Source: Xanthomonas sp. Leaf148 (GTDB lineage Bacteria; Pseudomonadota; Gammaproteobacteria; Xanthomonadales; Xanthomonadaceae). Taken from it: DNA of 64,000 nucleotides. The notes beneath the pieces are model-generated. The model was given only the letters and a program-made list of their open reading frames with translations, was not told the origin of the DNA and made no database searches. A program made the position numbers and the translations under genes. Of the stretch, positions 21,625 to 44,107 are shown in pieces. The number at the start of each line of letters is the position of its first letter. The stretch's first letter is position 1. The DNA is taken from contig NZ_LMOP01000008.1 in assembly GCF_001423585.1 (NCBI RefSeq), positions 794,982-858,981 of the forward strand, given 5' to 3'.

Positions 21625-21655
21625 TGCGGCGGGGTCCTTGTGGGTGTTGATCCAT

Positions 21656-21688
21656 GAAAAAACGGACGCTCCAAGGAGCGCCCGTTTC
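21656..21688 (-). terminator. Rho-independent terminator of the glutaredoxin gene
   Basis: On the minus strand, AAACGGGCGCTCC, loop TT, GGAGCGTCCGTTT, then TTTC: a long GC stem with a U run, 35 bp after the glutaredoxin stop codon. Confidence 0.85.
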
Positions 21689-21722
21689 GGTATGCAGTGG
21701 TGCGTGGCGTGCCTGGCCGCGC

Positions 21723-22649: not shown

Positions 22650-22709
22650 GGCAGCACTTCGGTGAGAGCGTGGAGACTGGGCATTCTACGCCGCGTGGCA
22701 TCATGCGGC

Positions 22710-23679: not shown

Positions 23680-25188
23680 TCAGGCGCTGGGTGCCGCTGC
23701 TGCTGGAGCCGGGCGCGTCGCCGCTGCGGGAGGCGTGGTTGTGCTGGACGCGGGTGTGGGCGACTGGCGACCGGCCGGCATGCTGCTCGCTGCGCTTGCT
23801 CCGGTGGGTGCACGACTGCCGCCTGCCGTGGTGGCGGCTGCACTCGGCGCAGCCGCGGCAGGGCTGCGTGCGGCGGCCGCAGACGGAGCTGTCGGTGCGG
23901 TAGGTGGCGGGCGTGCCGCCGCAGGCGCGGGTGTGGCATTGGTCGGCGACGGGTTTGCCGGGCGTGGCGCGGTGCTGCCGGCGATCGCGGTGTCCATGCC
24001 GCTGCGCCGTTCGCGCTCGCCGGTGAGTTGCGCCTGCAGGCGCGCCGTACGCGCCGCGCTGGGGTCGGGGATGTCCGCAGAGGGATTCAAGGTGGTGCTG
24101 CGAATGCGATCCGCCTGGGCTTGCGCGGCCATCTGGTTGAGCGGCAGATAATCGCTGTGGAAGTTCAGTTCCACCGAAGAGCTCAGATCCAGATCGGTAT
24201 TCATTTCTTCGGTGCGCTGCGAGCGCTGGGTGGAGACATAGCCGATGTTGTTCTCGATCTCCGCACTCGCGCCCCACGCCCCCATCCCGAATTTCCCCGA
24301 GGCCTTGACGCGGTTCTGCATGCTGAACTGGCTGCCGCGGTCTTCATTGGCGGCACTGCGCGTATCGATATGAAAACGCATCGCGGCATTGATGCGGCCG
24401 CTGTCCACCACGATGCGCTGCATGCCCATCGCCACCATCGTGGCCAGCATCTGCTGGCGCTGGCGGGCCAGGTAACGGCGTGCCAGTGGAACCAGCTGCT
24501 CCGGGTTGGAGGCGTCCACCGATTCGTCGTCGGCCAGACCCAGCGTTGCGCGGATGTCGTCGGCCACCGGCATGCTGGCGCCGGAACGCAGGCGGAGCCG
24601 CTGTTGGTCCTGTTCGTCCGGGTCGGGCATGTCGGCTGGATCCGGTGCGTCGTACTCGATCGCTTCGGGAAAATGCTCTGCCACCCACTGGCGAACCTGC
24701 GCAAGACCGAATTGGGTGCGCTCGAAACCGCTGGCCGAGGCCGAAACGGCGCCCAGCAGTTCGACGTATTGCTGCATTTGCTGGGCGTTGGAGTCGAGCA
24801 TCGCGCGAAACACGCCGTTGATCAGATCGGTGACAAAGCGTGGAAACGACACCGCGTTGAGCACGCCGCGCGTGGTGTCGGCAATCCGCTGCGCAGCGTC
24901 GCCGAATGCGGGTTGCTGCTCTTGCGCGCGCGCCAATACCGTAGGCGCGGTCCGAGCGATCTGTTGATCGGCGGCGTGTTCCTCGGCAAGCAGATCGGCT
25001 GCCAACGCCGACACGGTCACCATGGAGCGTGCCAGCGCCTGACGGTCGTGCGGTGTCAGTGCCTGGTAGTGAGGCGCGCGTTCGAGCACCTCGCGCACGG
25101 CTGCGCGAACCCAGGGCTGCGGCGCATGCCCTGGCGGCATGCTCGATGCGGTGAGCGAGATCGGCGGCAGGATGTGGGCGGCAGGCAT
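23680..25188 (-). CDS. Unrecognised protein family, paralogue 1 of 4
   Basis: Last gene of the twelve-gene run. The 502-residue protein has no signal peptide or membrane segment. It shares four blocks with the genes at 26062, 27310 and 34117. Block N is at about 31-70 (VREVLERAPHYQALTPHDR). Block A is at about 114-180 (FPRFVTDLINGVFRAMLDS, then QARQW-like). Block B is at about 237-283 (RQRQQMLATMVAMGMQRIVV). Block C is at about 336-365 (VELNFHSDYLPLNQMA). The last 110 residues are almost only Ala, Pro, Ser and Thr, a tail not seen in the paralogues. GGAGG lies 7 nt before the ATG. Confidence 0.8.
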   Translation of the reverse strand: MPAAHILPPISLTASSMPPGHAPQPWVRAAVREVLERAPHYQALTPHDRQALARSMVTVSALAADLLAEEHAADQQIARTAPTVLARAQEQQPAFGDAAQRIADTTRGVLNAVSFPRFVTDLINGVFRAMLDSNAQQMQQYVELLGAVSASASGFERTQFGLAQVRQWVAEHFPEAIEYDAPDPADMPDPDEQDQQRLRLRSGASMPVADDIRATLGLADDESVDASNPEQLVPLARRYLARQRQQMLATMVAMGMQRIVVDSGRINAAMRFHIDTRSAANEDRGSQFSMQNRVKASGKFGMGAWGASAEIENNIGYVSTQRSQRTEEMNTDLDLSSSVELNFHSDYLPLNQMAAQAQADRIRSTTLNPSADIPDPSAARTARLQAQLTGERERRSGMDTAIAGSTAPRPANPSPTNATPAPAAARPPPTAPTAPSAAAARSPAAAAPSAAATTAGGSRAPTGASAASSMPAGRQSPTPASSTTTPPAAATRPAPAAAAPSA

Positions 25189-25204
25189 GACGGGGCCTCC
25201 AGGC

Positions 25205-26050
25205 CTAGGCCGCCGGCTGCGGAAGCGACAGCAACCAGCGCTGCGCCGCCGCCATCACTGCGCCATCTTCGGCGCGTGCGGCCTCCAGACCGAGCGGCAT
25301 GGCAAGGTCCTGTGCGGCCAGCCATGCCAGCACCTGCTGGCCGTTGCGCCCCTGCTCGGCGAAGGCCTGTGAGTGCGCAGTGCCGGGATTGGCCACGCCG
25401 ATCAACATCCACAGCGACTGCACGCCGAAGGCCAGTTGCAGTTGGCGGTCGCGCAGCATGCCCAACGCAGCGTTGAGATTGTCCACGATCTCGCGCGCGG
25501 CCATCGCCGCCATCGCATCGGCACGCTGCGACAGAAACTCGCCCACCGCCTGCGCGGTGGCGGCCAGGGCGACGTCTTCGCGCATGTCGCGGCCATCTGC
25601 CTCGGCGACGATCGCAGTGCATAACGCCTGCATCAGACGATCGAAATGCGGTTGTTCGAAAACGCGCTGGAAGATCGCATTGCGCTCGGCCGCGCTGAGT
25701 CGTTCGCGGCGGCTGCGCCAGAATGTGGCCAGCGATTGCGTGCCAGGCCCGAGCGGTTGGGTGATCGCGCCGCTGGCAAACAGCGCGGCGATTTGCTCGG
25801 CGGCGGGCAAAACGCCAGCCTGTTCCAGCGCAGCGGCAAAATACAGTGGTGCAACTGCCAGCAGGCGCGGCCGATCCTGCGCATTCGGTGCGCCGGGCGG
25901 CAGGTCGATCTCGCCCAGTTCGGCCAATGTGCGGGCCAGCGCCGCGTCGTGCACCGCCACGTTTGCCTGTGCCAAGGCCAGCGCCTGCAGCAAGGTCGCG
26001 TAGGGATGCGGCCAGGCTGCAGCGATGCGGGGTGCAGAAGGCGGGCGCAT
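25205..26050 (-). CDS. Unrecognised helical protein, 281 aa
   Basis: Lies between paralogues 1 and 2 of the run but shows none of their conserved blocks. It is Ala-rich and almost entirely helical, without signal peptide or membrane segment. Visible stretches include LAVAPLYFAAALEQAGVLPAAEQI, ATFWRSRRERLSAAERNAIFQRVF and LQLAFGVQSLWMLIGVANPG. GAGGA lies 9 nt before the ATG. It sits 11 bp from its upstream and 16 bp from its downstream neighbour, so it belongs to the same transcript. No function is proposed. Confidence 0.75.
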   Translation of the reverse strand: MRPPSAPRIAAAWPHPYATLLQALALAQANVAVHDAALARTLAELGEIDLPPGAPNAQDRPRLLAVAPLYFAAALEQAGVLPAAEQIAALFASGAITQPLGPGTQSLATFWRSRRERLSAAERNAIFQRVFEQPHFDRLMQALCTAIVAEADGRDMREDVALAATAQAVGEFLSQRADAMAAMAAREIVDNLNAALGMLRDRQLQLAFGVQSLWMLIGVANPGTAHSQAFAEQGRNGQQVLAWLAAQDLAMPLGLEAARAEDGAVMAAAQRWLLSLPQPAA

Positions 26051-26061
26051 GCGGCGATTCC

Positions 26062-27291
26062 TCAGACGGCCGGTGCAGCGGCAGGACGACCAGCGGCCGG
26101 CGGCGGATTCGGGTTGAACGGTGTGGCATTGCCCTGGATGCTGGCGATCATGCCGGGCGAGGCCAGTTTTTCCATCGGGAAGTAATCGGATTTGAAGTTC
26201 ACCCGCACCTCGCCGGTCAGTTTTGCCTTCATCTCCTGATCCGAGGACGACTCTTCGTTGACCGAGGATTGCACCGTGGTCATGTGCCGCTGCACATTAG
26301 TGTTGACGGTGCCTGCAGCCCCCCAGCCGAGGTTGATGCCGGCGCCGGATTTGCGGCGGTTGTAGCTGGATTGCGTGTCGTACAACGAAGCGCCCGCGGT
26401 GCGCTGCGCAGAGTCGGAGGCACGGAAGTCGAACACCACCTTGGCATTGATCGCGCCATCGGTCACCACGATGCGGTTGATGCCCAGGATCACCATCGAC
26501 GAGAGCAGCTGTTGGCGGCTGCGTGCCATCTGCAACCGCGCGCCTTGCACCAGGCGTGTTTCCTGCTCCGGGTCGGACAGGTCGGTGATGGGCTGGGCCA
26601 GCTGCATGTCGTCTTTCATCTGCGTCAGCACCGCGCCGGCCTGATCTTCGTCGCGCACGCCCACGCGCGGGCCGGCATCGCCATCGGTCTCGATGGTCAG
26701 CGCCTCCGGAAAGCGTTCCACCAGCCAGTCGCGCGCATTGTTCATGCTGATGTTGTCGGTAGCGAATTGATCCACCGTCTGCGCCACCGATTTGAGCAAT
26801 TCGCCGTAGGCATTCATCTGCTGGATGGAGGCATCGACGATGGCCTGGAACACGTTCTGGATCAACCCGCCGACGAATGCAGGAAAATCCACCGAGCCGA
26901 TGTACTTCTTGAAGTTGTCGCCGCCTTGTTCCACCGAGGCGGCAGTGAAGTCGCTACCGGCAAACGTACCGATCTTGTCGGATGCCTTGTTCTTGGCCTG
27001 GCCGACGGGGTCGGCGAGTGCGCGCGCGCTTGGCGGCGTGTCGCGCGCAAGGATGCCGCCATCGGTGGATAGCTCCTGTTTTGCCAGTCCGTCGGGGTTG
27101 GACATGTAGGACGCAACGCGCACCATATTGCGTGCCATTTCCTGCTGCTCGGCCACTGGCAACTGGCGGAAGCCAGGCGAGGATTCCAGCAGGCGTCGCA
27201 CCTGCGGCCGCACGGCCGCCAGGGTGTCGTCGTCGAGCCAGGCGGGATGACCGGAGGTCGCACTGAAACTGTCTGTGGCAAGTGCATGCAT
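26062..27291 (-). CDS. Unrecognised protein family, paralogue 2 of 4
   Basis: The 409-residue protein has block N at 31-68 (VRRLLESSPGFRQLPVAEQ), block A at 135-200 (DFPAFVGGLIQNVFQAIVDA, NNARDWLVERFPEAL), block B at 250-295 (SRQQLLSSMVILGINRIVV, then DGAINAKVVFDFRASD) and block C at 358-388 (GEVRVNFKSDYFPMEKLA). Between B and C is a Gly/Asn/Ser-rich strand region with TTVQSSVNEESSS. There is no export signal. It is 18 bp downstream of paralogue 3. Confidence 0.8.
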   Translation of the reverse strand: MHALATDSFSATSGHPAWLDDDTLAAVRPQVRRLLESSPGFRQLPVAEQQEMARNMVRVASYMSNPDGLAKQELSTDGGILARDTPPSARALADPVGQAKNKASDKIGTFAGSDFTAASVEQGGDNFKKYIGSVDFPAFVGGLIQNVFQAIVDASIQQMNAYGELLKSVAQTVDQFATDNISMNNARDWLVERFPEALTIETDGDAGPRVGVRDEDQAGAVLTQMKDDMQLAQPITDLSDPEQETRLVQGARLQMARSRQQLLSSMVILGINRIVVTDGAINAKVVFDFRASDSAQRTAGASLYDTQSSYNRRKSGAGINLGWGAAGTVNTNVQRHMTTVQSSVNEESSSDQEMKAKLTGEVRVNFKSDYFPMEKLASPGMIASIQGNATPFNPNPPPAAGRPAAAPAV

Positions 27292-27309
27292 GGCAGTGGT
27301 GATCCCAGG

Positions 27310-28617
27310 TCATGCCGCAGGTGGAGCGGAGGGCGCAGCAGCGGTGTTACTGCCAGGGCGGTTGGTGGCCAACGATTTCACCATGCCCGGTTGCGCATTC
27401 ATCTGGATCGCCGCAATCGACTCGGGATTGGCCAGTTTTTCCAGCGGCAGATAATCGCTCTTGAAGTTCACCTCGACTTGTCCTGCCAGGCTTGCCTTGG
27501 CTTGCAGCGAAGAATCGCTCTGTAATTGCGAGGTGCTCATCATCTTGATGATGGGCTGTTCGTTGTACTTGTAGCTGCCCTTGGCGTAGTAGCTGCCATC
27601 GCGCTTGTCGCTGGAGCCGTCGGCACTCTGGCTAGAGGTGCCGCCATCGCTCTTGTAGTCGTAATCGCCTTCGTAACCGCGCGTTTTCTGCACGTTGCCG
27701 AACATATCCTTCTGGTTATCCATCTTGCTGGCACTGTAGCGATAGCGGCTGTCGTCGCGTGCCTGGAAGTCGTACAGCACCTTGGCCGAGATGCGCCCAT
27801 CGGTGACCACGATGCGGTTGATGCCCAGCATCACCAGCGTGGCCAGCAACTGCTGGCGACCGGTGGCGATCTGGGTACGTGCAGCGGGCACCAATACCGC
27901 TTCGACCAGATCGTCGTTGAGCGTGGTGACCGGTTTGTCCAGCGGCAGCGATTGATTGACGCGTGCGATGGCGGCGCGTTCGTCGACATCCTGACGCATC
28001 ACCACGCGCGGTTGCGGTGGCGCACCGGTGTCGCTGCTGCCACCGAAATCGCCGAATGCATCGTCTCCCATCTGCAGCTGAAAGATGTCCGGAAACTGTT
28101 CCACCAGATGATCGCGGCCCTGATTCTGGGTGGTGTTGTCGTCGCGAAATTGATTCAGGCTTTTGGACACGTCGGCGACCAACTTGGCATATGCCTCCAT
28201 CTGTTCGATCGACGAGGTGACGATGGAGTGGAACACGCCATTGATCAGTCCCGAGACGAAAGTGGGGAAATTGACCGCTGCCATCAATGCGCCGGCCTGT
28301 TGTACGCCGGTCTTCAGAGCCTGTCCGAACTCTGGCTGGTCTTCCTGTTTCAATGGCGTGGAATCTTCGCCAGCCATCGCACGCACGGGCGCGCTCTGCT
28401 GTTTCAGGCGCACGCCATCAGGTTCGGCGAGATAGGCGCCGATCTGCACCAGCCCCTTCGCCAACACTGCGCGCTTGTCGGCAGGCAGCTCATGAAACGC
28501 GTCGCTGCGTTCCAGCAACTGACGTACGGCCAGGCGTGCGGCGTCGTGTGTTTCGCGGTTGCCAGGCGGTGTGGCCGTGCGCGCGCTGGATCCGGCTGCG
28601 GGAAAAATGGCACTCAT
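27310..28617 (-). CDS. Unrecognised protein family, paralogue 3 of 4
   Basis: The 435-residue protein has block N (VRQLLERSDAFHELPADKR, about 30-70), block A (NFPTFVSGLINGVFHSIVTS, about 115-180), block B (GRQQLLATLVMLGINRIVV and DGRISAKVLYDFQARDDS, about 248-295) and block C (GQVEVNFKSDYLPLEKLA, about 385-410). Between B and C it carries an extra Tyr/Lys/Asp-rich insert (about 300-360) not present in the other copies. AGGAG lies 5 nt before the ATG. Confidence 0.8.
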   Translation of the reverse strand: MSAIFPAAGSSARTATPPGNRETHDAARLAVRQLLERSDAFHELPADKRAVLAKGLVQIGAYLAEPDGVRLKQQSAPVRAMAGEDSTPLKQEDQPEFGQALKTGVQQAGALMAAVNFPTFVSGLINGVFHSIVTSSIEQMEAYAKLVADVSKSLNQFRDDNTTQNQGRDHLVEQFPDIFQLQMGDDAFGDFGGSSDTGAPPQPRVVMRQDVDERAAIARVNQSLPLDKPVTTLNDDLVEAVLVPAARTQIATGRQQLLATLVMLGINRIVVTDGRISAKVLYDFQARDDSRYRYSASKMDNQKDMFGNVQKTRGYEGDYDYKSDGGTSSQSADGSSDKRDGSYYAKGSYKYNEQPIIKMMSTSQLQSDSSLQAKASLAGQVEVNFKSDYLPLEKLANPESIAAIQMNAQPGMVKSLATNRPGSNTAAAPSAPPAA

Positions 28618-28668
28618 GGCAACTCCTGCACGACAGGGGGGCGATGGAAAGGCGATAGGTGATGCGAC

Positions 28669-29721
28669 TCACTGCAGGGCGCGCGCGTCTTCGATGGCTT
28701 CGCGCATTTCAAACTCGATCGGTCGTACGTACAGGCTGATGCGTGCCGGCGAATTCGGCGTCACCCGGATACTGAGCACAGAGAAATGCCCTTGTTGCTC
28801 GGCATCGTCCATGCCGAAGGCATCCAGCCAGCGCGCTAGCGCAGCCAGTTGCCGGGGGCGCTCGGCAAGGCCGAGTTTGAGCAGATCCAGAAAACGCGCC
28901 GGCAGGTCCGGAATGGCAGCGAGCAGGACTTCCAGTTTCAACTCCGCACCATCGGGCGCATCGCGTAGGCCGATCAGCACGCCACCGGCCGGCAGTTCGA
29001 AGCGCCCGCCCAGGGCGACACCAACCACGCGCATCAACCCCGGCAATTGATGGCCGATGCCAAGCCGGTTCATCAACGGGCCTAGTCCATTCACCGCCAA
29101 TGCGCCGCGATGCAAGAACGTCACCCGCTGACTACCGGTATCGCGCTTGCAGCCGATCGAGGTGAAGATCGGCACCAGTCCGGGCAGTTCGTCGCAGGCC
29201 AGCTTGGTCAAGCGCGACAACGCGGGCGCCAAGGCATCGATCTGATTGGGCAGCAGCTCGTAGTAGATCTTGGTGGCGTAGAGCCCATCCTGATCGAACG
29301 CGCTACCGAACCAGGCGCCGTAGTTCATCCAGCTCAAGCCGCCGAAGCCGCGCCATGCTTCGCTGCGCCTGTCGAACCAGCGCAAGGCATCCTGGCCGAA
29401 GATCGGCGCGATCAACCTGCGTGCTTCGCGGGTGGCTTCATCGCGCCGTGCCACCGGCGAGGCCTCCGGGCCCAACGGTTCGATGGTGAAGCGCAACAGG
29501 TTGGGTTCGGATTCGGAAAACGAGGGTTCGTAGGGCACCGCACCGGGTGTGAGCGAGTTGCGTGCGTACGACACATCGTCGTCGGGCAGGTAGAAGGTGC
29601 GGTCGATCAAGCCATCGACGTAGGGCAGCGGGTCGCGGGTGCCCAGCGCCTTGGCCGCCGAACGCAGCGATTGACGGACCAGATGTTTGACCGCCTGCGG
29701 GCGATCGTCATGAGTGCGCAT
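28669..29721 (-). CDS. Unrecognised protein, 350 aa
   Basis: No signal peptide or membrane segment. The protein has repeating alpha-beta units ending in strand pairs such as ATKIYYELLPNQ, GGRFELPAGGVLIGL, AELKLEVLLAAIP and ARISLYVRPIEF. Strand motifs of the type K-x-Y-x-E and S-L-Y-V-R-P, spaced by helical stretches, recall aromatic prenyltransferases of the ABBA fold, but I have no decisive motif and treat that as speculation. AAGGAG lies 8 nt before the ATG at 29721. It is 11 bp after the 634-aa gene. Confidence 0.7.
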   Translation of the reverse strand: MRTHDDRPQAVKHLVRQSLRSAAKALGTRDPLPYVDGLIDRTFYLPDDDVSYARNSLTPGAVPYEPSFSESEPNLLRFTIEPLGPEASPVARRDEATREARRLIAPIFGQDALRWFDRRSEAWRGFGGLSWMNYGAWFGSAFDQDGLYATKIYYELLPNQIDALAPALSRLTKLACDELPGLVPIFTSIGCKRDTGSQRVTFLHRGALAVNGLGPLMNRLGIGHQLPGLMRVVGVALGGRFELPAGGVLIGLRDAPDGAELKLEVLLAAIPDLPARFLDLLKLGLAERPRQLAALARWLDAFGMDDAEQQGHFSVLSIRVTPNSPARISLYVRPIEFEMREAIEDARALQ

Positions 29722-29732
29722 GCGCGTGCTCC

Positions 29733-31637
29733 TTATAGACCGGGCAGGCTGATGCCCGCCTGGTTGAGCAGATCGCGCGCGGCCTGCGGCATCTCGATCG
29801 GACGGCTGGTGATCACCGGCGATTCGGCTGGTTGTGCGTACTGCTCCACGCTGTTGTCCTGTACGCCGCCCACCGCAAGCCATTGTTCGCACGCCTGCAG
29901 CAGATCCCAATCGGTGGGATCGACAGTGGGTTGGTCGCTGCCGCGCAGCTGCGGGTTGGTGAGTGCGCTGATCGAAATGACTTCGCCATAGCGGCCTTCC
30001 AGGCGTTGTCGCGTATTGGCGATCCAGCGAATGATCACCGCACCGGCGCGGGCCTGGGTCCGGAAGCGGCTGGTATTGCGCGGGCCACCCAGGTAATTGG
30101 CGTTGACCTGGTCGATCACCTGCCACATGTCGCGTGCGCCGAACGCGCCACGCACTTCCGGGTCGCTGAGCAGGTCGCGGTATTCCAGGATCATCTGCTG
30201 CAACTCGGTGGCAGCGAAGTAGGCGATGCCGTAGCCGCTGCGCGACAGGCTGGCGCCCAGATCGCGTGCGGCCTTGCGCACCTGCTCCTGCGAGACCGCC
30301 ACCGGTACGTTGGTGCGCAGCATGCGGTCCACACTCAGTTGGCGTCCGAACGAAGACACCGCCGACAGGAAGCGCAACCACAGCTCGTTGAACTCGCGAT
30401 TGGGTTCGTTTCCGTTCGGGTCGCCACCAGGTGCGCCGAAGCAGCGCATGTACAGGTCGCGGCGCTCGCCTTCGGTGATGCGTTCGGCGGCCGTCTTGTA
30501 GTAACGGAACAGATAATCGCCGGCTTTGCCGCGTCCCAGCGGCAACATGCCGCTGCGGAACAATTCGACGATGCGTTCCACCACCTGCGGCATCCGCGTC
30601 TCTTCCAGCATGTAGGCGAAGTAGATCGCCTGCACGGCGTTGAGATTCTCACGCACGATTTCCACATCGGTGGAATCTTCCAGATCGGGCAGGATGATTT
30701 CCATAGCCGACGGGGGCGCGCCGGCCACCACGCCGGTCTGCATCTCGTACCCGTTCTGAAGGTGACTGGCCAGCCAGGCGTTATCGGCACCGATGCCGTT
30801 GCTGGCAAGCCGGCGCACGGTGGCGGCAAGATTGCGCGAACTCAACGCGCAGACGGTGTCTTTTGCGGAAGGTCGGAAATCGGTGTCGGTGCTGTAGCGG
30901 TCGCGTCGGTCTTCGGGATTGTCGTCGGGCCACTCGCAACCGACGATATCCGCATCGATCAGCCCGGAGGCGATCTGCGACTGGATGGTGACCTGGTAAC
31001 GCGGCACCAGCAGCTCGAAGGCGGCGTCGAACAAGGCGCGGTTTTCGCGGTACTCGCCTTGTGCGGCGCTGACGCGTTGCACGAATCCGCGCAGGCTGGC
31101 GTCGGTGTAACCATCGAGCTGCAGCAGCCCGCAGATGCCGATGATTTCGCGCTCGTCGCAGCCAAGCGGGCCGCGTAATTCCTTGGGCGAGCGTTGCGAG
31201 CCGATCAGGCCGTATTTGTGGACGTTTTCCGTCGCACAGGCAAGTTTGTTCCAGTCCTTCTGTTGCTGGGTCGCAGTCACCAGCTGGTAGAACGGATCGA
31301 CCACCACGTCGCTGGACAGCTTGGTCTTGATCTGCGCCAGTTCGTCGAGTTGCCGCGGACTGAGCCCGCCGCTGGTGTCGGCAGTCTTGTCGATGGTCTG
31401 CAGCACCTGGCGGCGTGCACGCAGTTCCTGGCGCTTCTTGGTTTCGCGCTCGCCGAGATCGACCAGCAGGATGCGATTCATGGTGTTCACTCCGGGATCG
31501 GACGGTTTGGGTGAAGGAGCTTTGCTGGAGGCGGTGCTGCTGGCCGCGGCCGCCTTGCTGCGACCGTTGGAGCGTGGTTTGGCTGCCGGGGCGACCGTCT
31601 TAGGGGTGGACTTCTTGGTAGTGCGCTGGGTCGCCAT
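29733..31637 (-). CDS. Unrecognised large protein, 634 aa
   Basis: The first 50 residues are Lys/Ala/Pro/Ser-rich and probably disordered; the rest is helical, with stretches such as LVDLGERETKKRQELRARRQ, LGCDEREIIGICGLLQLDGY and PQVVERIVELFRSGMLP. The ATG at 31637 has GAGGAA 7 nt upstream. A second candidate at 31481 (MNRILLVDLGE) has GGAG 8 nt upstream and would remove the disordered leader, giving 582 residues; I cannot decide between them. It follows the subtilisin gene by 28 bp. It contains none of the paralogue blocks. Confidence 0.72.
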   Translation of the reverse strand: MATQRTTKKSTPKTVAPAAKPRSNGRSKAAAASSTASSKAPSPKPSDPGVNTMNRILLVDLGERETKKRQELRARRQVLQTIDKTADTSGGLSPRQLDELAQIKTKLSSDVVVDPFYQLVTATQQQKDWNKLACATENVHKYGLIGSQRSPKELRGPLGCDEREIIGICGLLQLDGYTDASLRGFVQRVSAAQGEYRENRALFDAAFELLVPRYQVTIQSQIASGLIDADIVGCEWPDDNPEDRRDRYSTDTDFRPSAKDTVCALSSRNLAATVRRLASNGIGADNAWLASHLQNGYEMQTGVVAGAPPSAMEIILPDLEDSTDVEIVRENLNAVQAIYFAYMLEETRMPQVVERIVELFRSGMLPLGRGKAGDYLFRYYKTAAERITEGERRDLYMRCFGAPGGDPNGNEPNREFNELWLRFLSAVSSFGRQLSVDRMLRTNVPVAVSQEQVRKAARDLGASLSRSGYGIAYFAATELQQMILEYRDLLSDPEVRGAFGARDMWQVIDQVNANYLGGPRNTSRFRTQARAGAVIIRWIANTRQRLEGRYGEVISISALTNPQLRGSDQPTVDPTDWDLLQACEQWLAVGGVQDNSVEQYAQPAESPVITSRPIEMPQAARDLLNQAGISLPGL

Positions 31638-31665
31638 CGAACGTTCCTCGGCAGCGGGTGGGAGG

Positions 31666-33105: not shown

Positions 33106-33881
33106 GTCTGCGCACTCCATTGACCAAGACTGCCTGCGCGCAATGGCACGCAGGCGCTGCGCCCATCCTCGAAGTCCAGCTGCGCATCGCAGCCGAGTTG
33201 GCTGGCCAACGGTGCCAGCACCAGCTGTCCGTCGTCGGCCGAGACGATGGGAATGTCGATTCCCGCCGCACGCACCAGCGGCAGCCTGCTGCTGCGCAGT
33301 CCCGGTGCGCTCAGGTGCACACGCGTGCCGCTGTTGCCATCGCCATCGCTCGCCTGCACACGCGTCACACGCGGTGCTGCGGCACGTAGCAGCGCCTGTT
33401 GCAGGCGATTGACCGGCATTCGCGACAGCCGTGCGATGACATCGGCGCCCGCGGTTTCCTTGAGCTCGTTGAGCTGGGTAACGGTGCGCACGCCGATCCG
33501 TTCGAGCTGGCGTTGTTCCTCATCGGAGAACTGGTCGCCAAGCGCGGTCTTGAGACTGAATTCGGATTCGTCGGCGCGGAAATCTGCCGCGTTTTCTTCG
33601 ATCATCGGTTTGGTGATCGTGGTCAACGCCAGCCGCACGGTACTGGCTTCGCTTTCGCCGGGACCGGCCGGGCGCAGATAGACATCGTCGTCGAGCATCT
33701 GCACGAACACGCGCAAATCCAGCGTCACGTCTTTCACCGCAAAGGTCAGCGGCAATTTGCCAACACGTGCCTTGATCGTCATCGCCGCCTGCGCCTTGTC
33801 CAATTGCTCGGTCAATGCCTGGATGAACAGGTCCAGTGGAACGCCGAGGGTTTGCAGCAACGGGGGCAGTTGCGCGCTCAT
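33102..33881 (-). CDS. Unrecognised protein, 259 aa, with helix-hairpin-helix-like segment
   Basis: Three parts are visible. Residues 1-110 contain strands (IKARVGKLPLTFAVKDVTLDLRVFV). Residues 125-168 resemble a helix-hairpin-helix repeat (ERIGVRTVTQLNELKETAGADVIARLSRM). Residues 170-259 form a beta-rich tail (PRVTRVQASDGD, AQLDFEDGRSACVPL). No export signal. Both ends overlap neighbours: its ATG overlaps the 79-aa gene's stop and its own stop overlaps the subtilisin start. Confidence 0.75.
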   Translation of the reverse strand: MSAQLPPLLQTLGVPLDLFIQALTEQLDKAQAAMTIKARVGKLPLTFAVKDVTLDLRVFVQMLDDDVYLRPAGPGESEASTVRLALTTITKPMIEENAADFRADESEFSLKTALGDQFSDEEQRQLERIGVRTVTQLNELKETAGADVIARLSRMPVNRLQQALLRAAAPRVTRVQASDGDGNSGTRVHLSAPGLRSSRLPLVRAAGIDIPIVSADDGQLVLAPLASQLGCDAQLDFEDGRSACVPLRAGSLGQWSAQT

Positions 33882-34117
33882 GACTGATCTCCCAGCTGCC
33901 AGACCACATGCAGCAGCGACGGCGCAGCGTTCCAGTGATTGACGGCGAGGCTGCGTGGCACATCGGCCAGCAGGCGGCAACCACCGTCGCGCAGGATCGG
34001 GCGCAGCTCCAGCGGCAGCCGCATTTCCACATGCGTTAACTGCATGCCGGCGCGGTCTTCGATCGCCACCAGGCCAGCGTGCAGTTCTTCCAGCAATCCG
34101 GACAGTTCGCGCAACAT
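33878..34117 (-). CDS. Unrecognised small protein, 79 aa
   Basis: Starts MLRELSGLLEELHAGLVAIEDRAGMQL: an amphipathic helix then strands (VEMRLPLELRPIL, SLLHVVWQLG). A GTG directly before the ATG is open too, but GGAG is 7 nt from the ATG and only 4 from the GTG. The ATG overlaps the stop of paralogue 4 (TGATG) and its stop overlaps the next start (ATGA), a sign of stoichiometric production. Possibly an adaptor between its neighbours (inference). Confidence 0.7.
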   Translation of the reverse strand: MLRELSGLLEELHAGLVAIEDRAGMQLTHVEMRLPLELRPILRDGGCRLLADVPRSLAVNHWNAAPSLLHVVWQLGDQS

Positions 34118-35097
34118 CACGCCGCTCCTTCAGCGGGCGATGATGCAGCCGGTGCCGCCGCGGCGGGCACGAGGTTGCCGGCGGCTGCACGCATGGCGGG
34201 TGCGTTGCGTTGCACCAGCGCCACCTTGGCGGCATCTGCCAGGCGCTCCAGCGGCAATGTCTCGCTGACGAAATTGAGCTTGACCTCGCCGAACAGATCG
34301 GCGCGCACGTTCGATTCGTTCTGTGCATTGACCTGCAATGTCGACACCATGGTCGAGGTCTGCCCGGCATAACTGGAGGAGCCGCGCTCGCCCCAATTGT
34401 CTGCCTGTGCGGGATCGCTGCCGGTGGCATAGCCGACCTTGGCCACATCTTGTGCAGCGGCGCGAAACATCACCTTGCTGCTGATGCTGCCATCGCGCAC
34501 CACCACCCGGTTCATGCCCAGCAGCACCATCGTTGCCAGCAGTTGCTGACGTTCGCTGCCGACCTTCAACCGCACCTGCGGCAGCACGCGCTGTTCGAGC
34601 AATTCGGCGGTGAGTTCCTCGTCGGCCAGCCCATAGTCGGCCAGCCATAAGGGTTGGCTGCCAGTCGTGCGTGGCACCAGCTCCGGCACGGTGCGCGCGC
34701 CGCCATCGGGGAGCAGCAAGACGATATCGCCGGGATAGTGCGTGGCCAGCCAATCGCGCGCCTGATTGAGCGAGACGTTGTCCTCGGTGAACTGATCCAC
34801 CGTCTTGGACACCGCTGCCACCATGCTGGAATAACTTTCCATCTGGCGGATCGAGGCATCCACGATGGCGTCGAACGTGCCGTGCACCAGTTGCGCGACG
34901 AAGCCCGGAAAATCCACCTCATTGACCATCGCACCGGTACGTCGCGCGATGGTCTCGGTCGCCTGAGGCTTGACCGTGGCCGTTGCCGTTGCTTCGCCAG
35001 CCGACGGCGTTGCCGCGGTCGGTCCGGCCAGCGCACGCGCTGCCGCCGCAGTGGGGCGCTGCGGAAAGATCAGGTTGCGGTGGCCTGGAGCGCTCAT
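34117..35097 (-). CDS. Unrecognised protein family, paralogue 4 of 4 (short form)
   Basis: The 326-residue protein has block A (DFPGFVAQLVHGTFDAIVDA, NQARDWLATHYPGD, about 72-135), block B (SERQQLLATMVLLGMNRVVV with DGSISSKVMF, about 190-235) and a weaker block C (GEVKLNFVSETLPLERLA, about 275-300). It lacks block N, having an Ala/Thr-rich leader instead. The frame is open further upstream into the next gene; ATG at 35097, 8 bp after that gene's stop, gives a sensible start. No export signal. Confidence 0.8.
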   Translation of the reverse strand: MSAPGHRNLIFPQRPTAAAARALAGPTAATPSAGEATATATVKPQATETIARRTGAMVNEVDFPGFVAQLVHGTFDAIVDASIRQMESYSSMVAAVSKTVDQFTEDNVSLNQARDWLATHYPGDIVLLLPDGGARTVPELVPRTTGSQPLWLADYGLADEELTAELLEQRVLPQVRLKVGSERQQLLATMVLLGMNRVVVRDGSISSKVMFRAAAQDVAKVGYATGSDPAQADNWGERGSSSYAGQTSTMVSTLQVNAQNESNVRADLFGEVKLNFVSETLPLERLADAAKVALVQRNAPAMRAAAGNLVPAAAAPAASSPAEGAA

Positions 35098-35104
35098 GAC
35101 CCGC

Positions 35105-38100
35105 TCAGCCCGCGACCACGGCGTCGGCCGGTTGCGCCACCCAGGTATTGCTGCGCTCATGCCGCCCATCGCCGAGCAGACGCAAGGCGATCCGCGCCTG
35201 CGGGTTGCCCTGTGCGAGCCCGCTGAAGCGGTAGTCCACGATGACGGCCAGCGCCGCAACACCGCTCACCGCATCTGCATCTTCGATACGCGCCGTCACC
35301 TCGACGCCATGGCTCAGCAGGGGCGGGGTGCCGGCAGTGATGCGAACCTCGCCGACGCTGCCGTGATCGGCAACAAACTCCAGCGTGATCGGCAGCGGAG
35401 TCGCTGCACCCTCCAGCGCCGGCCAGTCGTCGAGCACAAGACGGACATCGATGGCGGCGTTGCCGGAATCGATCAGCGTGGACACGGCAGACTTGCGGCC
35501 TTCCAGCTGGTCGAGGGTCCAGCGACAAGCGCCCGCACTGCCGCGCACCACACTCATGCGGGTACCGGCCACCCGGCTGGGCGTCACTGGCTCGCGCTGT
35601 TCGCCGGTGGCAGACGTTGTCTCCAATGCCTGCGCGTGCACCGCTGCTGGCGGCCTGGCCAGGCGCAACTGAGCACCGCCAAGCGATGCGGCGTGCGTGC
35701 TCGCTGCCGGTAGGTACAGCACACGCCAGTCGCCATAGTCGTCGGCAGCCATTTCACCGAATGCGCTTGCAAATTCCTGGAACGGCAACCAGTCGGCATA
35801 GCCTTGGTTGGTTGGATTGAAAACGACCGGATCGTTGTCGAAGGTCTGCCGCGTATCCCAGGGATTGAGGATGTTGACGATTGCGCTCGACGGATCGGCT
35901 AGATCGCCAGAGATACCGCTGAGCACCACCGCATGCGGCGCACCCACGATGACCACCCATAGCGGGCCATGCCGGTTCAACCAGTCCGCCCACTGTTGCG
36001 GCGTGTGGTACAGGCTGGTGTTGGAAGGTTGTTCGATGGCGTTAAAGCCGTAGCGCTGTCTGACAGCGTCCAGTAACTCGAAGCTATAGGACGTCGACAG
36101 GGTGGTGCCGACCTCGTTGGCCAGCGTTTCCGGGTCGATCGACGCGTGGCGCCGATACGACAACAGCATCGCCATCGCCGCCGCCCAGCAGGTGCGCTTG
36201 TCCGGTTGCGCGATCAAGGGCACGTCGTATTCGTGGACGGGCGCATCGCTCAGCGAACGCGTGGACAACGACTGCGCAGTGGTCGGGTAGAGGATGCGCA
36301 CCACCTCCGGATGGAAGCGTTCGCTGAAGGGAGCAGGTGCGCTGGCGCTGCCGCCGCCATCGCCGGCCATCAGCCAGCTAACGAGCTTGTCCTGGAAACT
36401 TTTCCAGAGCCGGTCGGCAGCAAAAAAGCCGATAAACGCGCCCGGCCCACCGGTCCACCGGTCGGCACCACGGGTGTAGAACACGGTGGTGCCGTTGTCA
36501 TCGCGGATTCCGAATTCGCGGTGACCGCTTACTGGATGATCACCGGACCATTCGGTATGCACAGTGGTGAAGCGCCAACGTGTCGGCTCTACCAGGCTTA
36601 CGACAACCGACGCATTGTCGGGACCACCGATATTGACTTTGAAGACGGTGCCGACGGGAGTGGACGACTCCCATTGAATGTCGTCCACACCGCTGTCGTA
36701 CGGGATGAATTCGCTGTAGGCGGTATCGACAAAATCGTTGAGATGCAGTCGCAGGTGTTCAAGAACCTCAGGACCGGTCCAACCATCGGGTAGACGCTCG
36801 CAACGCACTTCATAACGGTCCAGGCTGAGTTCGCCCTGTGCATCTGCGATGCGCTGAACCGACATCCCGCGTGCGCTGACGGCCTGTTCCACCGCGGCCG
36901 GTGCGCGCCAATTGAACAGATCGGCCCACTGCGGCGCGTAGCGCTGGGCGCGTTCCACATCGTCCGGCCCGATGATCAGTGCGCGGGCGTTGGTTGTGCT
37001 GCGTGGTGGTGCGGGTCGCGCATGCGGTGGGGACATTGCCTGCCCGGTCTGCATGGCGGAGGCCGACCGACGCGGCGTGGCGCCGTTCTGCGAGTCCTGT
37101 ACGCCCAGCGAGAAGCTGACCGCCTGGCTCCAGTCCAGTGCTTGCTGGCGGATCCAGGCCAGCTTTGCGTCAGTCATGCGGCAACCCAGGTTGGTCGTGG
37201 CGTCATGTTGGGCCACATGCACGCCGACCACGTGGGCACGCGGTGCCTCGGTGGTGTCGATGTAGTACACCGGCGAGCCGCTGGTGCCGCCCAACGACTG
37301 CACATCGTAGGCAAACGTGTCGTCTGTCGGGAGCTGGCGGATGCGCCCACCATGCATATGCTGGCGATCCGGGTCGATGACGGCATTGACCACGGTGCCT
37401 GCAGTGCTGCTATCGAGCGAACGCGCTGCATAGCCGCTCACGACGATCTGTTCTTCGCGCGATTGGGTCAGCTGTTCCAGAATGTCGAAGTACTGCGGGT
37501 AGGCAACCGCGTTGGCCTCCGGCACGCGAATCAGCGCCATATCGAAATCGCGTTGGGATGCGTTGTATGCGGGATGGATGACCCATGCATCCGAAGTGAC
37601 CTGAAAGCGCCCGAACGGCTCGCTTTCGCTGGTTGTTCCTGCATCGTGTTTGCCGGGCACGATGATCAGCGCACGCTTGCCATCTACTACGTGGGCGGCG
37701 GTCAATAGCAGACGCGGCGCGATGAAGAATGCGGTGCCCGCCGGTTCTCCTTCATCGCTGTCATTAAGGCGTCGCACCTGGCAGATCGCGCTGTAGGGCG
37801 CAACGGTGGTATTGACGACGCCAAACACCCAGCGCGCACTGCTGGCAAAGAACGCCAGCTGCGCCAGCAGCGCTTCGCCCAACGTTGTGGGGCTGTCGTA
37901 TTGATCGATCACGCGCAGTGCGTTGACTGGGGCCGAGCCATGACGCGGCGTCTGCGTCGAGGAAGGTGCGCGCACAACTGGCGCCGAGCGCAGCGTCGGC
38001 ACCGCCTGCGATGCGGGGCGCCAGCTCTGCGCGGCTGCGGTTGCTGCTGCGGCATCGGGCGATGAGGACGCGGCAGGCGTTGATGCCTCTGGTGACACGG

Positions 38101-38683
38101 TGGCGGCCGGAGTAGTTTGCGCGGGCGGCGTTGCGGAGGCAGGGGTTTGCCACAGCTCATCCGAGTACCCATCGCTGTAGCCGCCGCGGCCCGGATCGGT
38201 GGCCGGCGCAACCGCCGCGGCGGGCGCCGCGCCGACCACCGCATCGGCGCCCCATGCCAGCGACGCGCTGTCGCCGCCGTAGCCGTTGTTGCCATCGCTA
38301 CGCGCGGTACGTCGCAGGCTGCGTTCGGTCAGCCCGGACAGCGAGACGTACATATTGCCGCGATCGGGCATCTGCACCTCGATTGGCCGCGCGCGGTCGC
38401 GTTCGCTGTAGGTCGCCAAGCCGAAGTACAACCGCGGCTGCCCGACAAAGCGCGCAACCACACTCGGCGGTACCAGATACATCGCATCGCGCCCCTTGGT
38501 GCCGGGCTGCACAAGACTGGAAAAGAACGTGCGCGACGTGCGGCGGGCGCGGTTTTCCGGCTTGAGCAACTCCGGGTCGGTGGCCAGCCCGATCTCGAAC
38601 AGCGGGGTGTCGCTGCGCACGCTGAAGCTCAGCACATTGAAGCGGTCGTTGACGCTGTCGCGGGTGGCGCGGATGCGGGCCAT
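35105..38683 (-). CDS. Giant dual-protease fusion: trypsin-like plus papain-like domains, 1192 aa
   Basis: Order of parts: residues 1-125 an N-terminal domain of mixed strands (YLVPPSVVARFVGQPRLYFGLATYSE); 140-250 a Pro/Ala/Thr/Ser linker; 295-515 a trypsin-like serine protease with H331 (LLTAAHVVDG), D381 (RDFDMALI) and S468 (GGTSGSP); 560-775 an unrecognised domain; 815-980 a papain-like cysteine peptidase (C39/C70 type) with C832 (TCWAAAMAMLLSY), H917 (APHAVVLSGI) and N940 (NILNPWD); 1000-1192 a beta-rich tail. No Sec signal. AGGAG is 7 nt before the ATG. All catalytic residues of both proteases appear intact. Confidence 0.9.
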   Translation of the reverse strand: MARIRATRDSVNDRFNVLSFSVRSDTPLFEIGLATDPELLKPENRARRTSRTFFSSLVQPGTKGRDAMYLVPPSVVARFVGQPRLYFGLATYSERDRARPIEVQMPDRGNMYVSLSGLTERSLRRTARSDGNNGYGGDSASLAWGADAVVGAAPAAAVAPATDPGRGGYSDGYSDELWQTPASATPPAQTTPAATVSPEASTPAASSSPDAAAATAAAQSWRPASQAVPTLRSAPVVRAPSSTQTPRHGSAPVNALRVIDQYDSPTTLGEALLAQLAFFASSARWVFGVVNTTVAPYSAICQVRRLNDSDEGEPAGTAFFIAPRLLLTAAHVVDGKRALIIVPGKHDAGTTSESEPFGRFQVTSDAWVIHPAYNASQRDFDMALIRVPEANAVAYPQYFDILEQLTQSREEQIVVSGYAARSLDSSTAGTVVNAVIDPDRQHMHGGRIRQLPTDDTFAYDVQSLGGTSGSPVYYIDTTEAPRAHVVGVHVAQHDATTNLGCRMTDAKLAWIRQQALDWSQAVSFSLGVQDSQNGATPRRSASAMQTGQAMSPPHARPAPPRSTTNARALIIGPDDVERAQRYAPQWADLFNWRAPAAVEQAVSARGMSVQRIADAQGELSLDRYEVRCERLPDGWTGPEVLEHLRLHLNDFVDTAYSEFIPYDSGVDDIQWESSTPVGTVFKVNIGGPDNASVVVSLVEPTRWRFTTVHTEWSGDHPVSGHREFGIRDDNGTTVFYTRGADRWTGGPGAFIGFFAADRLWKSFQDKLVSWLMAGDGGGSASAPAPFSERFHPEVVRILYPTTAQSLSTRSLSDAPVHEYDVPLIAQPDKRTCWAAAMAMLLSYRRHASIDPETLANEVGTTLSTSYSFELLDAVRQRYGFNAIEQPSNTSLYHTPQQWADWLNRHGPLWVVIVGAPHAVVLSGISGDLADPSSAIVNILNPWDTRQTFDNDPVVFNPTNQGYADWLPFQEFASAFGEMAADDYGDWRVLYLPAASTHAASLGGAQLRLARPPAAVHAQALETTSATGEQREPVTPSRVAGTRMSVVRGSAGACRWTLDQLEGRKSAVSTLIDSGNAAIDVRLVLDDWPALEGAATPLPITLEFVADHGSVGEVRITAGTPPLLSHGVEVTARIEDADAVSGVAALAVIVDYRFSGLAQGNPQARIALRLLGDGRHERSNTWVAQPADAVVAG

Positions 38684-38692
38684 ACGGAACTC

Positions 38693-39016
38693 CTAGCGGC
38701 GCTTGCGGGGTGGAAGAGCGGCGTGCGGCGGTGGCGTGGAGACGGGAGAAGCGGGCAGAGCTGCAGCGGTGTTCGGAGCGCTGTCGATGTCGGTCGCGAT
38801 GTGTTCCCAGAAGCGTTGCTGGGTGTCGATGCCGATACTCTCCAGATGGGGTTGCATGAAACTCATGGCCTGCTCGAGATGACGGAAGAACGTGCGTTCA
38901 CCGGATTGCACGTGCTCGATCGAGCCGCGCCACTCCCGTACCGTGTCGTCGCCGTCGCCACGCTCTCCCCAAACCCGGACGATGAAGGCGGCGGTTCGGT
39001 CCTCCAGCAGTGCCAT
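38693..39016 (-). CDS. Small conserved protein, first gene of the run, 107 aa
   Basis: Pattern TAAFIVRVWGERGDGDD, EWRGSIEHVQSGERTFFRHLEQAMSFMQPHL, then a Pro/Ala-rich basic tail. I have a recollection of small proteins of this pattern occurring beside regulators and large multidomain proteins in other bacteria, but no function is known to me. GGAG lies 8 nt before the ATG. Four heptamer repeats begin 42 bp upstream of its start, making this the leader gene of the operon. Confidence 0.75.
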   Translation of the reverse strand: MALLEDRTAAFIVRVWGERGDGDDTVREWRGSIEHVQSGERTFFRHLEQAMSFMQPHLESIGIDTQQRFWEHIATDIDSAPNTAAALPASPVSTPPPHAALPPRKRR

Positions 39017-39058
39017 GCCCGCGCTCCGGGTGAGGTGGATTCACGCTAGGCCGCCTGC

Positions 39059-39098
39059 ATCACCGATGCATCACCGCCAGATCACCGGTGAATCACCG
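39059..39098 (-). promoter_or_regulatory. SARP-type operator: four heptamers at 11-bp spacing
   Basis: ATCACCG occurs at 39059-39065, 39070-39076, 39081-39087 and 39092-39098, that is CGGTGAT-N4 four times on the strand of the operon. SARP/BTAD activators such as AfsR and ActII-ORF4 bind direct heptamers with 11-bp period just upstream of the -10 box. Ten bases after the last repeat is TAGCGT, a plausible -10. The regulator encoded directly upstream is of this class. Confidence 0.8.
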
Positions 39099-39530
39099 CG
39101 CCGTCTTCCCGTGTGATGCAGCAGTGATGCATTGCGACGTGCAGCGCAGGCAGCGCCGGTCCACACGCCTGGTTGCCGGGGCGCGTACGGGTTGGAAAAG
39201 GGACAGCGTGCGGAAGTGGTGGCGCGTCACCAGCTAGTCGCCACGGTGGCTCCAGCCGGTGTCCCAGTCGGGCAACGCCGGTTACAGAGAGGGCCGGCCG
39301 CGCGCATCGCGCAGCAGCGGCACCTCGGCCGGGTCGCACGCCGGGACGGCGGCATTCGCCTTATGCGGCAGGCCGCACTTCGTACGCCATGCGCCGGGCT
39401 CGCCGGTGGTGCAGCAAGGCCGCTACGCGCGATGGACCTAGCTGGTTGCAGCAGCGCGGCGCCGCAACGAACACGCAGATACCTACGCGCTCGGCATCGG
39501 GCAGCGCGGCGTGCGCCAGTGTTGGAGAAC
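39099..39530. other. Gap between SARP-type regulator and its operator
   Basis: 432 bp without a convincing gene. Short frames exist on both strands, but none has a ribosome-binding site or recognisable motif. It may hold the regulator's 3' end signals. Confidence 0.4.
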
Positions 39531-40445
39531 TCAGGGTTCCAGAAACTGCAGGCTCAATTGCAGTTGCGCATCTGCCGCGGCCAGGCCACGACGTGCGTTT
39601 TCGATCAGCATCTGTGCGTGCTGGCCGGCGCTGTCGGCAAACGCGAAGGGGCGTGCAGCAGGTGCAGGCACCGTGTCTTCTACGCTCGTCCCGATGGCAC
39701 CGTCGGCAATGCGGTGATAGAGCGTCATCGTCTCGCGCATCGGTTGGATCGCCAGCTCGCGCCGCAACAGCTCGCGGCAGCGCTCGAACTGGCATAAGGC
39801 ATGTGCGCGCTGTCCGTTGAGCACGAACAATTGCATCAGTGCGCGGTGCACATCTTCGCGCAGCGCGTCGCTGTCCAGAATCGCTTGTGCATGCCGGATT
39901 CCTTCGCCGTAGTCGCGCCGGATCGTGGCGATCTGAACCAGGCGCCAGAGCGCGTTGAGATAACTGCGGCGATGTTTTTCGCGTTCGCGCAGCGCCCAAT
40001 CGTCGGAGACATCCATCAGGATGTCGGAGCGGTACAGCGCGACGCCGCGTTGCAGTCCGGCGATTTCTGCCTCGGTCATCTGCTCGGGTGGCTTGCTCAG
40101 GCCTGGCGCGATGTCCTTGCTGAATTCGGCGACATCGAGCCAGACGTCCATCGGGCCATCCAGGCCGATCGCGCCGCGCCGGTCGCACACGATCAGATCG
40201 CCGTGATCCAGTGGCGGGGATTCGACGATGCGGCGTAGGCGCCACAGGGCGGTATTGAACGATCCCGCCGTCGCGCCGGCATCGCGTTCGGGCCACAGGC
40301 TGGCAATGAGCTCGCTACGACTGAAATACCGATGCTGGCCGATGGCCAGATAGGCCAGCAGACTGCCGCAACGTCCGGAGACCGCAACTGCGCGTCCTTC
40401 GTCCTGGGCAACGGAAACCGAACCGAACAACCAGATCCTGAACAT
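39531..40445 (-). CDS. SARP/BTAD-type transcriptional activator
   Basis: The 304-residue protein begins MFRIWLFGSVSVAQDEG. An OmpR-like winged helix covers about 1-95 (LLAYLAIGQHRYFSRSELIASLWPERD, GSFNTALWRLRRIVE). The bacterial transcriptional activator (BTAD) helical repeat domain covers about 100-250 (ALYRSDILMDVSDDWALRER, VHRALMQLFVLNGQRAHALCQFERCRELLRREL). No NTPase domain follows, so it is a short SARP. An ATG at 40454 is also possible. It lies upstream of, and points towards, the twelve-gene run whose promoter carries SARP-like heptamers. SARP regulators are typical of actinobacteria and less common here. Confidence 0.88.
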   Translation of the reverse strand: MFRIWLFGSVSVAQDEGRAVAVSGRCGSLLAYLAIGQHRYFSRSELIASLWPERDAGATAGSFNTALWRLRRIVESPPLDHGDLIVCDRRGAIGLDGPMDVWLDVAEFSKDIAPGLSKPPEQMTEAEIAGLQRGVALYRSDILMDVSDDWALREREKHRRSYLNALWRLVQIATIRRDYGEGIRHAQAILDSDALREDVHRALMQLFVLNGQRAHALCQFERCRELLRRELAIQPMRETMTLYHRIADGAIGTSVEDTVPAPAARPFAFADSAGQHAQMLIENARRGLAAADAQLQLSLQFLEP

Positions 40446-40884
40446 CCTCGCCATCCTCGCTCGAATGCAGCCAATGTCCATTCGGCACACCTACGCCTGC
40501 GGCCCCTTCCGCGAGCGCCCCATGGTGGGCAAAAAGTCCGATCCACACCGATACGAGACATCCCCTTGTTGTCCCGGCATCCCGTGCCGTAGGACGGCCG
40601 GCGTGTGAGGGCGCGATCATGCCACGGCTGTTCGCGCAGGCGTAGCGATGGCGGACAGACGGCAGTCGCGTGTCAACCGCGCAGCGGATGCGCTGCGTCA
40701 GCATCGCTGACCATGCAGTCGACATCCTGCAATCGACATCCTGCGACGATCGTCCTCCAAGGCCGTTTCCGCCGCTGCACGCGACGGCTATCCCGGTCGA
40801 ATGCGCTGCATCGCGCGCGGCTTACCAGGCACGGCCTGCGCGGCCGTTTTCGACGGGGTGGCTGCGCGCGAAGGCGGGTAGGCG

Positions 40885-43955: not shown

Positions 43956-44107
43956 GCGACGGGCCGGTTGTAGGCGTGAGGCTTGGCATGGTAGCGGAAA
44001 TATGACAAGCGGACATGCTTGCATCGGCAACGATGTCAAGTGGGGCTTCAAGCCCGGCTGCAGGTCGATTGCACAAGCCCCTGCGTCCAGCCAGCTAGAA
44101 TCCCCCG

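Follow-up and report, generated by a model that had tools for sequence, protein, structure and literature searches.

A conserved twelve-gene operon from Xanthomonas encodes a multi-domain hydrolase with fixed ends and a changing middle

What is the purpose of an operon that joins three proteases with a prenyltransferase-like protein and a group of proteins without known family? We addressed this question for a locus of Xanthomonas sp. Leaf148, located in a 64,000-nucleotide stretch of contig NZ_LMOP01000008.1 (hereafter, the window). Twelve closely spaced open reading frames (ORFs) on the minus strand, A to L, run from position 39016 down to 23680, downstream of a gene for a SARP-type regulator (S). 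The original prediction, made from the nucleotide sequence, had described twelve packed genes behind such a regulator. The ORFs agree with it: the intergenic gaps measure 7–51 bp, 4-bp overlaps occur at C/D, D/E and E/F, and S contains a BTAD domain. The central observation is that B is one multi-domain hydrolase protein of changing make-up within an otherwise conserved gene set. Our favoured reading, to which we assign a probability of roughly 45%, is a self-contained, horizontally moving antagonism (or predatory) system that produces a single lytic cargo of several enzymes and sets it free.

Conservation of the gene set

A genome collection was scanned with a profile of the four paralogues C, I, J and L. 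The scan returned 170 relatives, of which the best 80 were kept, giving 79 loci (L numbers below; G numbers denote genomes); distant members are therefore under-represented. The order B-C-(D)-E-F-G-H-I-J-K-L recurs across phyla with about 25–60% identity per gene. The carriers include Xanthomonadaceae, Burkholderiales, Bradyrhizobium, Sphingomonadales and Roseobacter kin, as well as a cyanobacterium, an acidobacterium, Cellulomonas, an Anaerolineae bin and others.

The full gene set could be judged in the 52 loci that were long enough. H and J were present in all 52, C, E, F, G, I and L in 51 each, and B in 49. K was labelled in 45, with a G-like match at the K position in six of the remaining seven, and D in only 25, because it is short and divergent. 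The labels are best BLAST matches of stop-to-stop ORFs; the 'G' label of L055 occupies the K place. In L080 and L089 BLAST had overlooked B; a profile of its N-terminal module (BN) recovered it, with E-values of 2e-20 and 4e-19 in L150 and L151. The original prediction would have fallen had the genes not travelled together; the neighbourhood search found a conserved order in several phyla, with most genes in 49–52 of the 52 loci. The exception to full conservation is L026 (Cupriavidus necator A5-1), which has H–L and, by BLAST, no B–G in the 8.8 kb upstream. Several reading frames of its H–L are broken, which points to a decayed or partial copy or to assembly errors.

Downstream of L, where families were counted only when present in at least four loci, the SARP regulator is the only real-looking gene family that recurs across distant loci, so the gene set appears self-contained. 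The other downstream groups were a six-locus low-complexity set, taken for chance, a four-locus set from two Sphingomonas and two Burkholderia, and, in roseobacters, two four-locus groups overlapping each other on opposite strands. A homologue of S lies upstream of the operon in 11 of the 24 upstream loci fetched (the L150 case is weak, E 7e-6), and in 5 loci a SARP regulator is convergent with the operon and downstream of it.

Domain architecture of protein B

Protein B (positions 35105–38683, minus strand, as are all features of the operon; 1192 residues) was dissected with Pfam and with hidden Markov models (HMMs) built here. BN spans residues 1–152 (38228–38683). It is followed by a trypsin-like domain at residues 296–481 (37241–37798; Pfam Trypsin 6e-11, Trypsin_2 1.2e-10), in which the His, Asp and Ser motifs are visible. 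Residues 600–790 (36314–36886) form an unassigned 190-residue domain, SRPBCC-like by eye only; Pfam gave no match to it, and no PDB sequence reached an E-value under 0.072. The papain-like C70/C39 domain, with Cys and His motifs in its sequence, covers residues 816–961 (35801–36238; Pfam C70 1.9e-16), and the C-terminal module (BC) residues 1045–1186 (35126–35551).

We compared 27 B proteins, taken from two sets of 12 upstream stretches, a B. pyrrocinia plasmid, the deltaproteobacterium of L153 and the window. BN was found in all 27 and BC in 24. One of these 24, L115, has a BC fragment only; its B, read as it stands, is possibly truncated by a frameshift close to the end. Between the two modules, 26 domain arrangements were distinguished. 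Some of the B proteins compared had also gone into the HMMs, and two arrangements would seem to differ if a domain had been overlooked in one of them. The inner domains, most of them hydrolases of peptide or amide bonds, were C70 (in 22 proteins), trypsin (15), Amidase_2 (12), C92 (8), a DUF3238-like domain (8) and the unassigned domain (7). The sole like-arranged pair, L151 and L153, had no domain recognised in this HMM scan; Pfam matches, all under cut-off, were GH46-like and PG_binding_1 in L151 and PG_binding_1 in L153. Pfam was run on 20 of the 27 (the window and 19 others), and the assignments for L140–L145 and L148 rest on our HMMs. An entire amidase domain sets the B of the nearest relative examined, L110 from Xanthomonas sp. 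Leaf131, apart from that of the window. There is one BN protein per carrier in 24 of 24 genome handles, equal to 23 distinct genomes (G312 and G493 are identical, with the same coordinates). All three catalytic motifs were present in 16 of 20 trypsin domains.

Cell walls are a likely target, since relatives of B carry Amidase_2, C92 and, in one case, GH46-like and PG_binding_1 matches. Because intact peptidoglycan is extracytoplasmic, amidases that cut it would need to leave the cell or act at its lysis. The cytoplasmic, proteolysis-deploying assembly that had been proposed for this locus holds as far as its multi-protease content and the intact subtilisin triad (67 of 67, see below) are concerned. 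It is too narrow given Amidase_2 in 12 of 27 B proteins, C92 in 8 of 27 and the GH46-like match.

The subtilisin F and the prenyltransferase-fold protein H

F (31666–33105, 479 residues) is a subtilisin-like serine protease (Pfam S8 4.7e-33). Its alignment to Tk-subtilisin starts at F residue 112. All 67 F proteins compared retain the catalytic residues D173, H223 and S388 and the oxyanion N327. Against the curated NCBIfam Type VII mycosin model, F scored 137.9 bits, under the cut-off of 278.75. The three protease types claimed earlier turn out to be three families of only two catalytic types, two serine and one cysteine.

H (28669–29721, 350 residues) can be assigned with confidence to the DMATS/ABBA aromatic prenyltransferase fold, and it has the ABBA barrel. 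The Pfam Trp_DMAT score was 16.6 bits, under the cut-off of 25; matches at E ≤ 0.1 were obtained for 17 of 35 relatives (best 1.3e-4), and identity to the listed solved DMATS-type structures is 10–18%. Seven active-site positions were chosen and mapped by order and spacing from TleC and FgaPT2, as given in the accessible parts of two reports (PMC4786772, PMC3668578). All seven are present in the H of the window and in 63 of 76 H proteins. Most diphosphate-binding residues are lost in the H proteins of L061, L064, L066, L069, L071, L074 and L079, mainly from Sphingomonas and Erythrobacter kin. Because the operon is kept there, H may have a non-enzymatic role in these seven, as was suggested for PatF, an ABBA member of cyanobactin clusters that is described as likely inactive in the part of PMC3668578 available to us.

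The paralogue family and the remaining proteins

Four paralogues without known family had been predicted, and this description stands. I (27310–28617, 435 residues) is 40% identical to J (26062–27291, 409 residues), 37% to C (34117–35097, 326 residues, with most of the N-terminal part missing) and 32% to L (23680–25188, 502 residues, with a long Pro/Ala/Ser-rich tail). J has a DUF6683 match under cut-off at residues 20–64 (E 8e-4). Within the operon, C, I, J and L contain 0.01–0.08 Cys per 100 residues, compared with 0.37–1.51 for F, G, H, D and K; E is also low (0.14). In L087 and L089, extra J-like paralogues stand in tandem, so the number of paralogues may grow.

The six other proteins described earlier as lacking a clear family have to be divided. 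H has the DMATS fold, E has a weak Trypco2 match and K is a paralogue of G; A, D and G remain without family in Pfam. E (33102–33881, 259 residues) scored 15.3 bits with its N-terminal part against Trypco2, under the Pfam cut-off of 24.2, and 18 of 32 members match at E ≤ 0.1 (best 1.7e-4). The later parts of E are HhH-like by eye, and a TIG match occurs in 2 of 32 relatives. K (25205–26050, 281 residues) is 27% identical to the C-terminal part of G (29733–31637, 634 residues) with E 1e-13. D (33878–34120) has 80 residues. A (38693–39016) is a small protein of 107 residues, of the FIVRVW type; in other branches its slot holds a different small protein of the YANYFE type. We rejected DUF3467 as a family for the A of the window: the slot protein of B. 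pyrrocinia is DUF3467 and has no similarity to it. Altogether, nine proteins (A, C, D, E, G and I–L) fall below every curated Pfam cut-off.

The regulator S (39531–40445) lies in an ORF of 39531–40490 with a BTAD match (E 1.9e-19) and a Trans_reg_C match under cut-off; no NTPase part was seen by Pfam. The start was placed at 40445, residue 16 of the ORF, where the alignment of most relatives begins.

Distribution and horizontal transfer

At the family level, 25 of 198 genomes matched, 21 of them strongly (best E < 1e-100). In the phylum sample, with J as sole query, the only match among 299 genomes was the window's own. The samples of the Cellulomonas and cyanobacterial phyla gave 2 of 198 and 2 of 194 matching genomes, the centre genome being counted each time. 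Both flanks of the insertion (21600–23520 and 42034–44159) were located in 31 genomes of the genus, and on a single contig in 28. The flank matches lie 18.5 kb apart in the window; in the carrier G453 the distance is 21.6 kb, and in the other 26 genomes it is 0.9–5.4 kb. In the H tree, bacterial classes interleave; the Betaproteobacteria require 9 label changes, at least 8 of them via well-supported branches. The interleaving fits horizontal transfer without proving it, and these sequence comparisons are consistent with an operon that moves horizontally. Plasmid records matched once for H (Burkholderia) and four times for I. A viral origin was rejected: none of the sites in viral contigs that matched the search pattern encodes a relative of H or of the I family, and no phage record matches H.

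A second, cyanobacterial type

On a Tolypothrix plasmid and in genome G888, F, G, a single I-like gene, E and a D-like gene (compared by eye on the alignment only) occur in a different order, and these loci also carry a PG_binding_1 or coiled-coil protein. PG_binding_1 matches were found in L122, L151 and L153. The plasmid locus (L122, 6580–17798) adjoins an IS701 transposase, and the plasmid is typed as mobilizable (MOBV). The second type with EndoU and SLH proteins is covered by L138 (G888:C125:51000-70900) and L139. The EndoU protein of G888 has 1280 residues and scored 27.4 bits against a cut-off of 25.3; an SLH protein is encoded close to the F/G/I-like/E locus of the same genome. A short motif of the LFxLEQSLxG type, recognised by eye, is repeated at the N-terminus of the EndoU protein and is common to two neighbouring proteins. 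EndoU near a second-type locus supports toxin recruitment, with the neighbours seen in one locus only.

Comparison with known systems

Polymorphic toxins carry one C-terminal toxin. B resembles them in joining a conserved leading part (BN, 27/27), for which a delivery role is presumed, to exchangeable effector domains in 26 arrangements, and EndoU in the cyanobacterial relative adds to the likeness. In contrast to them, B holds several hydrolases between two conserved ends, and neither a known secretion trunk nor a recurrent immunity gene downstream was seen.

According to the accessible part of Kaur et al. (2020; PMC7159879), System 3 joins a trypsin, and sometimes a subtilisin, with predicted peptidoglycan-cutting effectors. 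As far as that part describes them, System 3 and the VMAP systems share with our operon several peptidases and predicted peptidoglycan-cutting effectors per locus, as well as Trypco2, matched weakly in E. The operon differs from them in that NucA, STAND, MoxR, vWA, VMAP and EAD1 were not matched, that one cargo protein has two conserved end modules, and that twelve genes are conserved, most of them without family. Of the System 3 core (NucA and trypsin), the trypsin is present, and NucA was unmatched by Pfam in all twelve proteins.

Cyanobactin clusters (PatA/PatG, PatF) are alike in combining a subtilisin and an ABBA protein in one operon. They differ in that no precursor peptide or heterocyclase was seen in our operon, and F scored 69.5 bits against a PatA/PatG cut-off of 421.05. 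Unlike DMATS/CymD-type prenyltransferases, H is not set in a recognised natural-product pathway, and some H branches have lost residues.

PADLOC 2.0.0, run on ten of the twelve proteins (not D and J), identified no system-specific antiphage model. A search confined to the cluster gave no Pfam match to sheath, tube or baseplate proteins of phage tails, extracellular contractile injection systems or type VI secretion systems. PHROGs, searched with ten proteins (not B and F), returned a single weak match of unknown function (E 0.0086).

The enzymes themselves belong to known families. The set as a whole, the clamp-and-cargo layout of B, the families C/I/J/L and G/K, D, and the modules BN and BC match nothing described in the libraries searched, bar the weak matches noted. 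Neither the family libraries nor the literature produced strong matches for most genes, in line with the earlier claim that no described system accounts for the locus. No paper on this system was found in the literature searched; since preprints and most subscription papers were outside its reach, absence from print is not proven.

Proposed function and alternatives

In our judgement, antagonism is favoured because the cargo domain set changes between species. The SARP regulator would turn the gene set on, and BN and BC would dock B onto an assembly of I, J, L and C with G, K, D and E. Maturation or triggering of the complex might fall to F, the subtilisin, for example by cutting the linkers of B to free single hydrolases. 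H may prenylate a component, or act as a structural ABBA protein, and in this way provide membrane attachment for the complex. Once freed, the proteases and the amidases that cut cell walls would attack neighbouring bacteria or prey, after crossing of the envelope or lysis of the producer.

A more far-reaching form of this proposal, which we consider doubtful, is a new class of protein-delivery or self-assembling lytic particle. A scaffold of paralogues together with G, K, D and E would clamp a multi-warhead polyprotein by both ends, with DMATS-type lipidation on an aromatic residue; the subtilisin would free the hydrolases on arrival, and the warheads would be reshuffled between fixed clamps. 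Should the favoured reading be right, several lytic enzymes would be loaded into one transferable weapon in an undescribed and widespread manner, under a natural enzyme-swapping rule of fixed end modules and a free middle. A new scaffold family would come with it, as would a possible example of aromatic prenylation of proteins in bacteria and a supply of combined hydrolases for walls and proteins. Were the operon to serve immunity instead, a conserved twelve-gene set with nine proteins under the Pfam cut-offs would still be a clear gap.

Several observations weigh against a released cargo. As had been predicted, no signal peptide or membrane segment was found in the operon proteins by a 19-residue hydropathy scan alone, the top mean being 1.72, within the C70/C39 domain of B. 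Likewise, no secretion ATPase, sheath, baseplate or pore was recognised by Pfam among the twelve genes. An immunity-like gene recurring downstream of L was not seen among families present in at least four loci, although a classical toxin would require one; its absence would fit enzymes that are harmless inside the producer. By simple patterns, a motif is missing in 11 of 30 C70 and 7 of 13 amidase domains, so some B domains may be inactive. The 27 B proteins come from spread taxa, a range over which other long proteins may vary too. Certain Amidase_2 enzymes, such as AmpD, act on wall fragments in the cytoplasm, so the amidases in B are no proof of extracellular action. The predicted model of I is poor (pTM, the predicted template modelling score, 0.35), and the idea of an assembly consequently rests on paralogy and composition. 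Moreover, one H branch is without the diphosphate-binding set though the operon is retained, and the large second-type protein, tried as a BN homologue, gave no match.

Intracellular immunity or programmed death is the strongest rival, and we judge it unlikely. The complex would sense infection, F and the trypsin of B would be activated in a protease cascade, and B would digest the cell's own proteins and, with its amidases, the wall, killing the infected cell. The missing signal peptides and the horizontal spread seen in the flank distances and the H tree would suit such a system, as would the weak match of E to Trypco2, a domain whose name refers to its occurrence alongside trypsin in the conflict systems described in the part of PMC7159879 that we could consult. 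However, NTPase, MoxR, vWA, VMAP, STAND, EAD1 and NucA were unmatched by Pfam in the twelve genes, and the PADLOC matches of its ten proteins were confined to protease domains and to weak, partial ones. No defence-gene family recurs downstream, upstream neighbours beyond S being outside the survey, and self-killing would hardly need a hydrolase set that changes from species to species.

It is distinctly improbable that the operon builds an envelope or surface structure, with the paralogues as a surface layer or filament and B opening and trimming wall and proteins for its passage. The very low Cys content of C, I, J and L, the SLH protein near one second-type locus and the PG_binding_1 matches in L122, L151 and L153 are in its favour. 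Such a builder should keep a stable tool set, whereas an arms race is suggested by the 26 arrangements among 27 B proteins, and the spread is patchy (strong matches in 21 of 198 family genomes).

Secondary metabolism is the typical setting of both SARP regulators and DMATS enzymes, and cyanobactin clusters also contain subtilisins. These facts, the good DMATS-fold match of H with its residue set in 63 of 76 proteins, and the ABBA protein of cyanobactin clusters (accessible part of PMC3668578) would allow for a peptide natural product, in which H prenylates a peptide cut by F from an operon protein, B serves in processing or export, and the SARP is pathway-specific. We hold this to be the least probable explanation, because we noticed no gene that is short and has a variable core, all four paralogues encode long and conserved proteins, the greatest variability lies in the domain set of B, peptidoglycan amidases would have no obvious role, and one H branch without the diphosphate-binding set has kept the operon.

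Neighbouring genes and divergent loci

Near the insertion site, positions 44977–46461 of the window encode a protein that strongly matches MATCAP (PF08014, E 5.1e-123). This family, found here in a bacterium, takes its name from a microtubule-associated tyrosine carboxypeptidase. In Burkholderia pyrrocinia (L123; 3896–4858 and 21409–26006), genes for a patatin-like phospholipase and a cyclase-AAA-TPR protein lie behind the operon; the gene in front of it bears the annotation of a sigma-54-dependent regulator, and no SARP gene is annotated there. Finally, L131 (7679–10766; G578, of the Cellulomonas phylum) contains a short stretch resembling E and two I-like genes, both divergent, with F, G and H not recognisable nearby.

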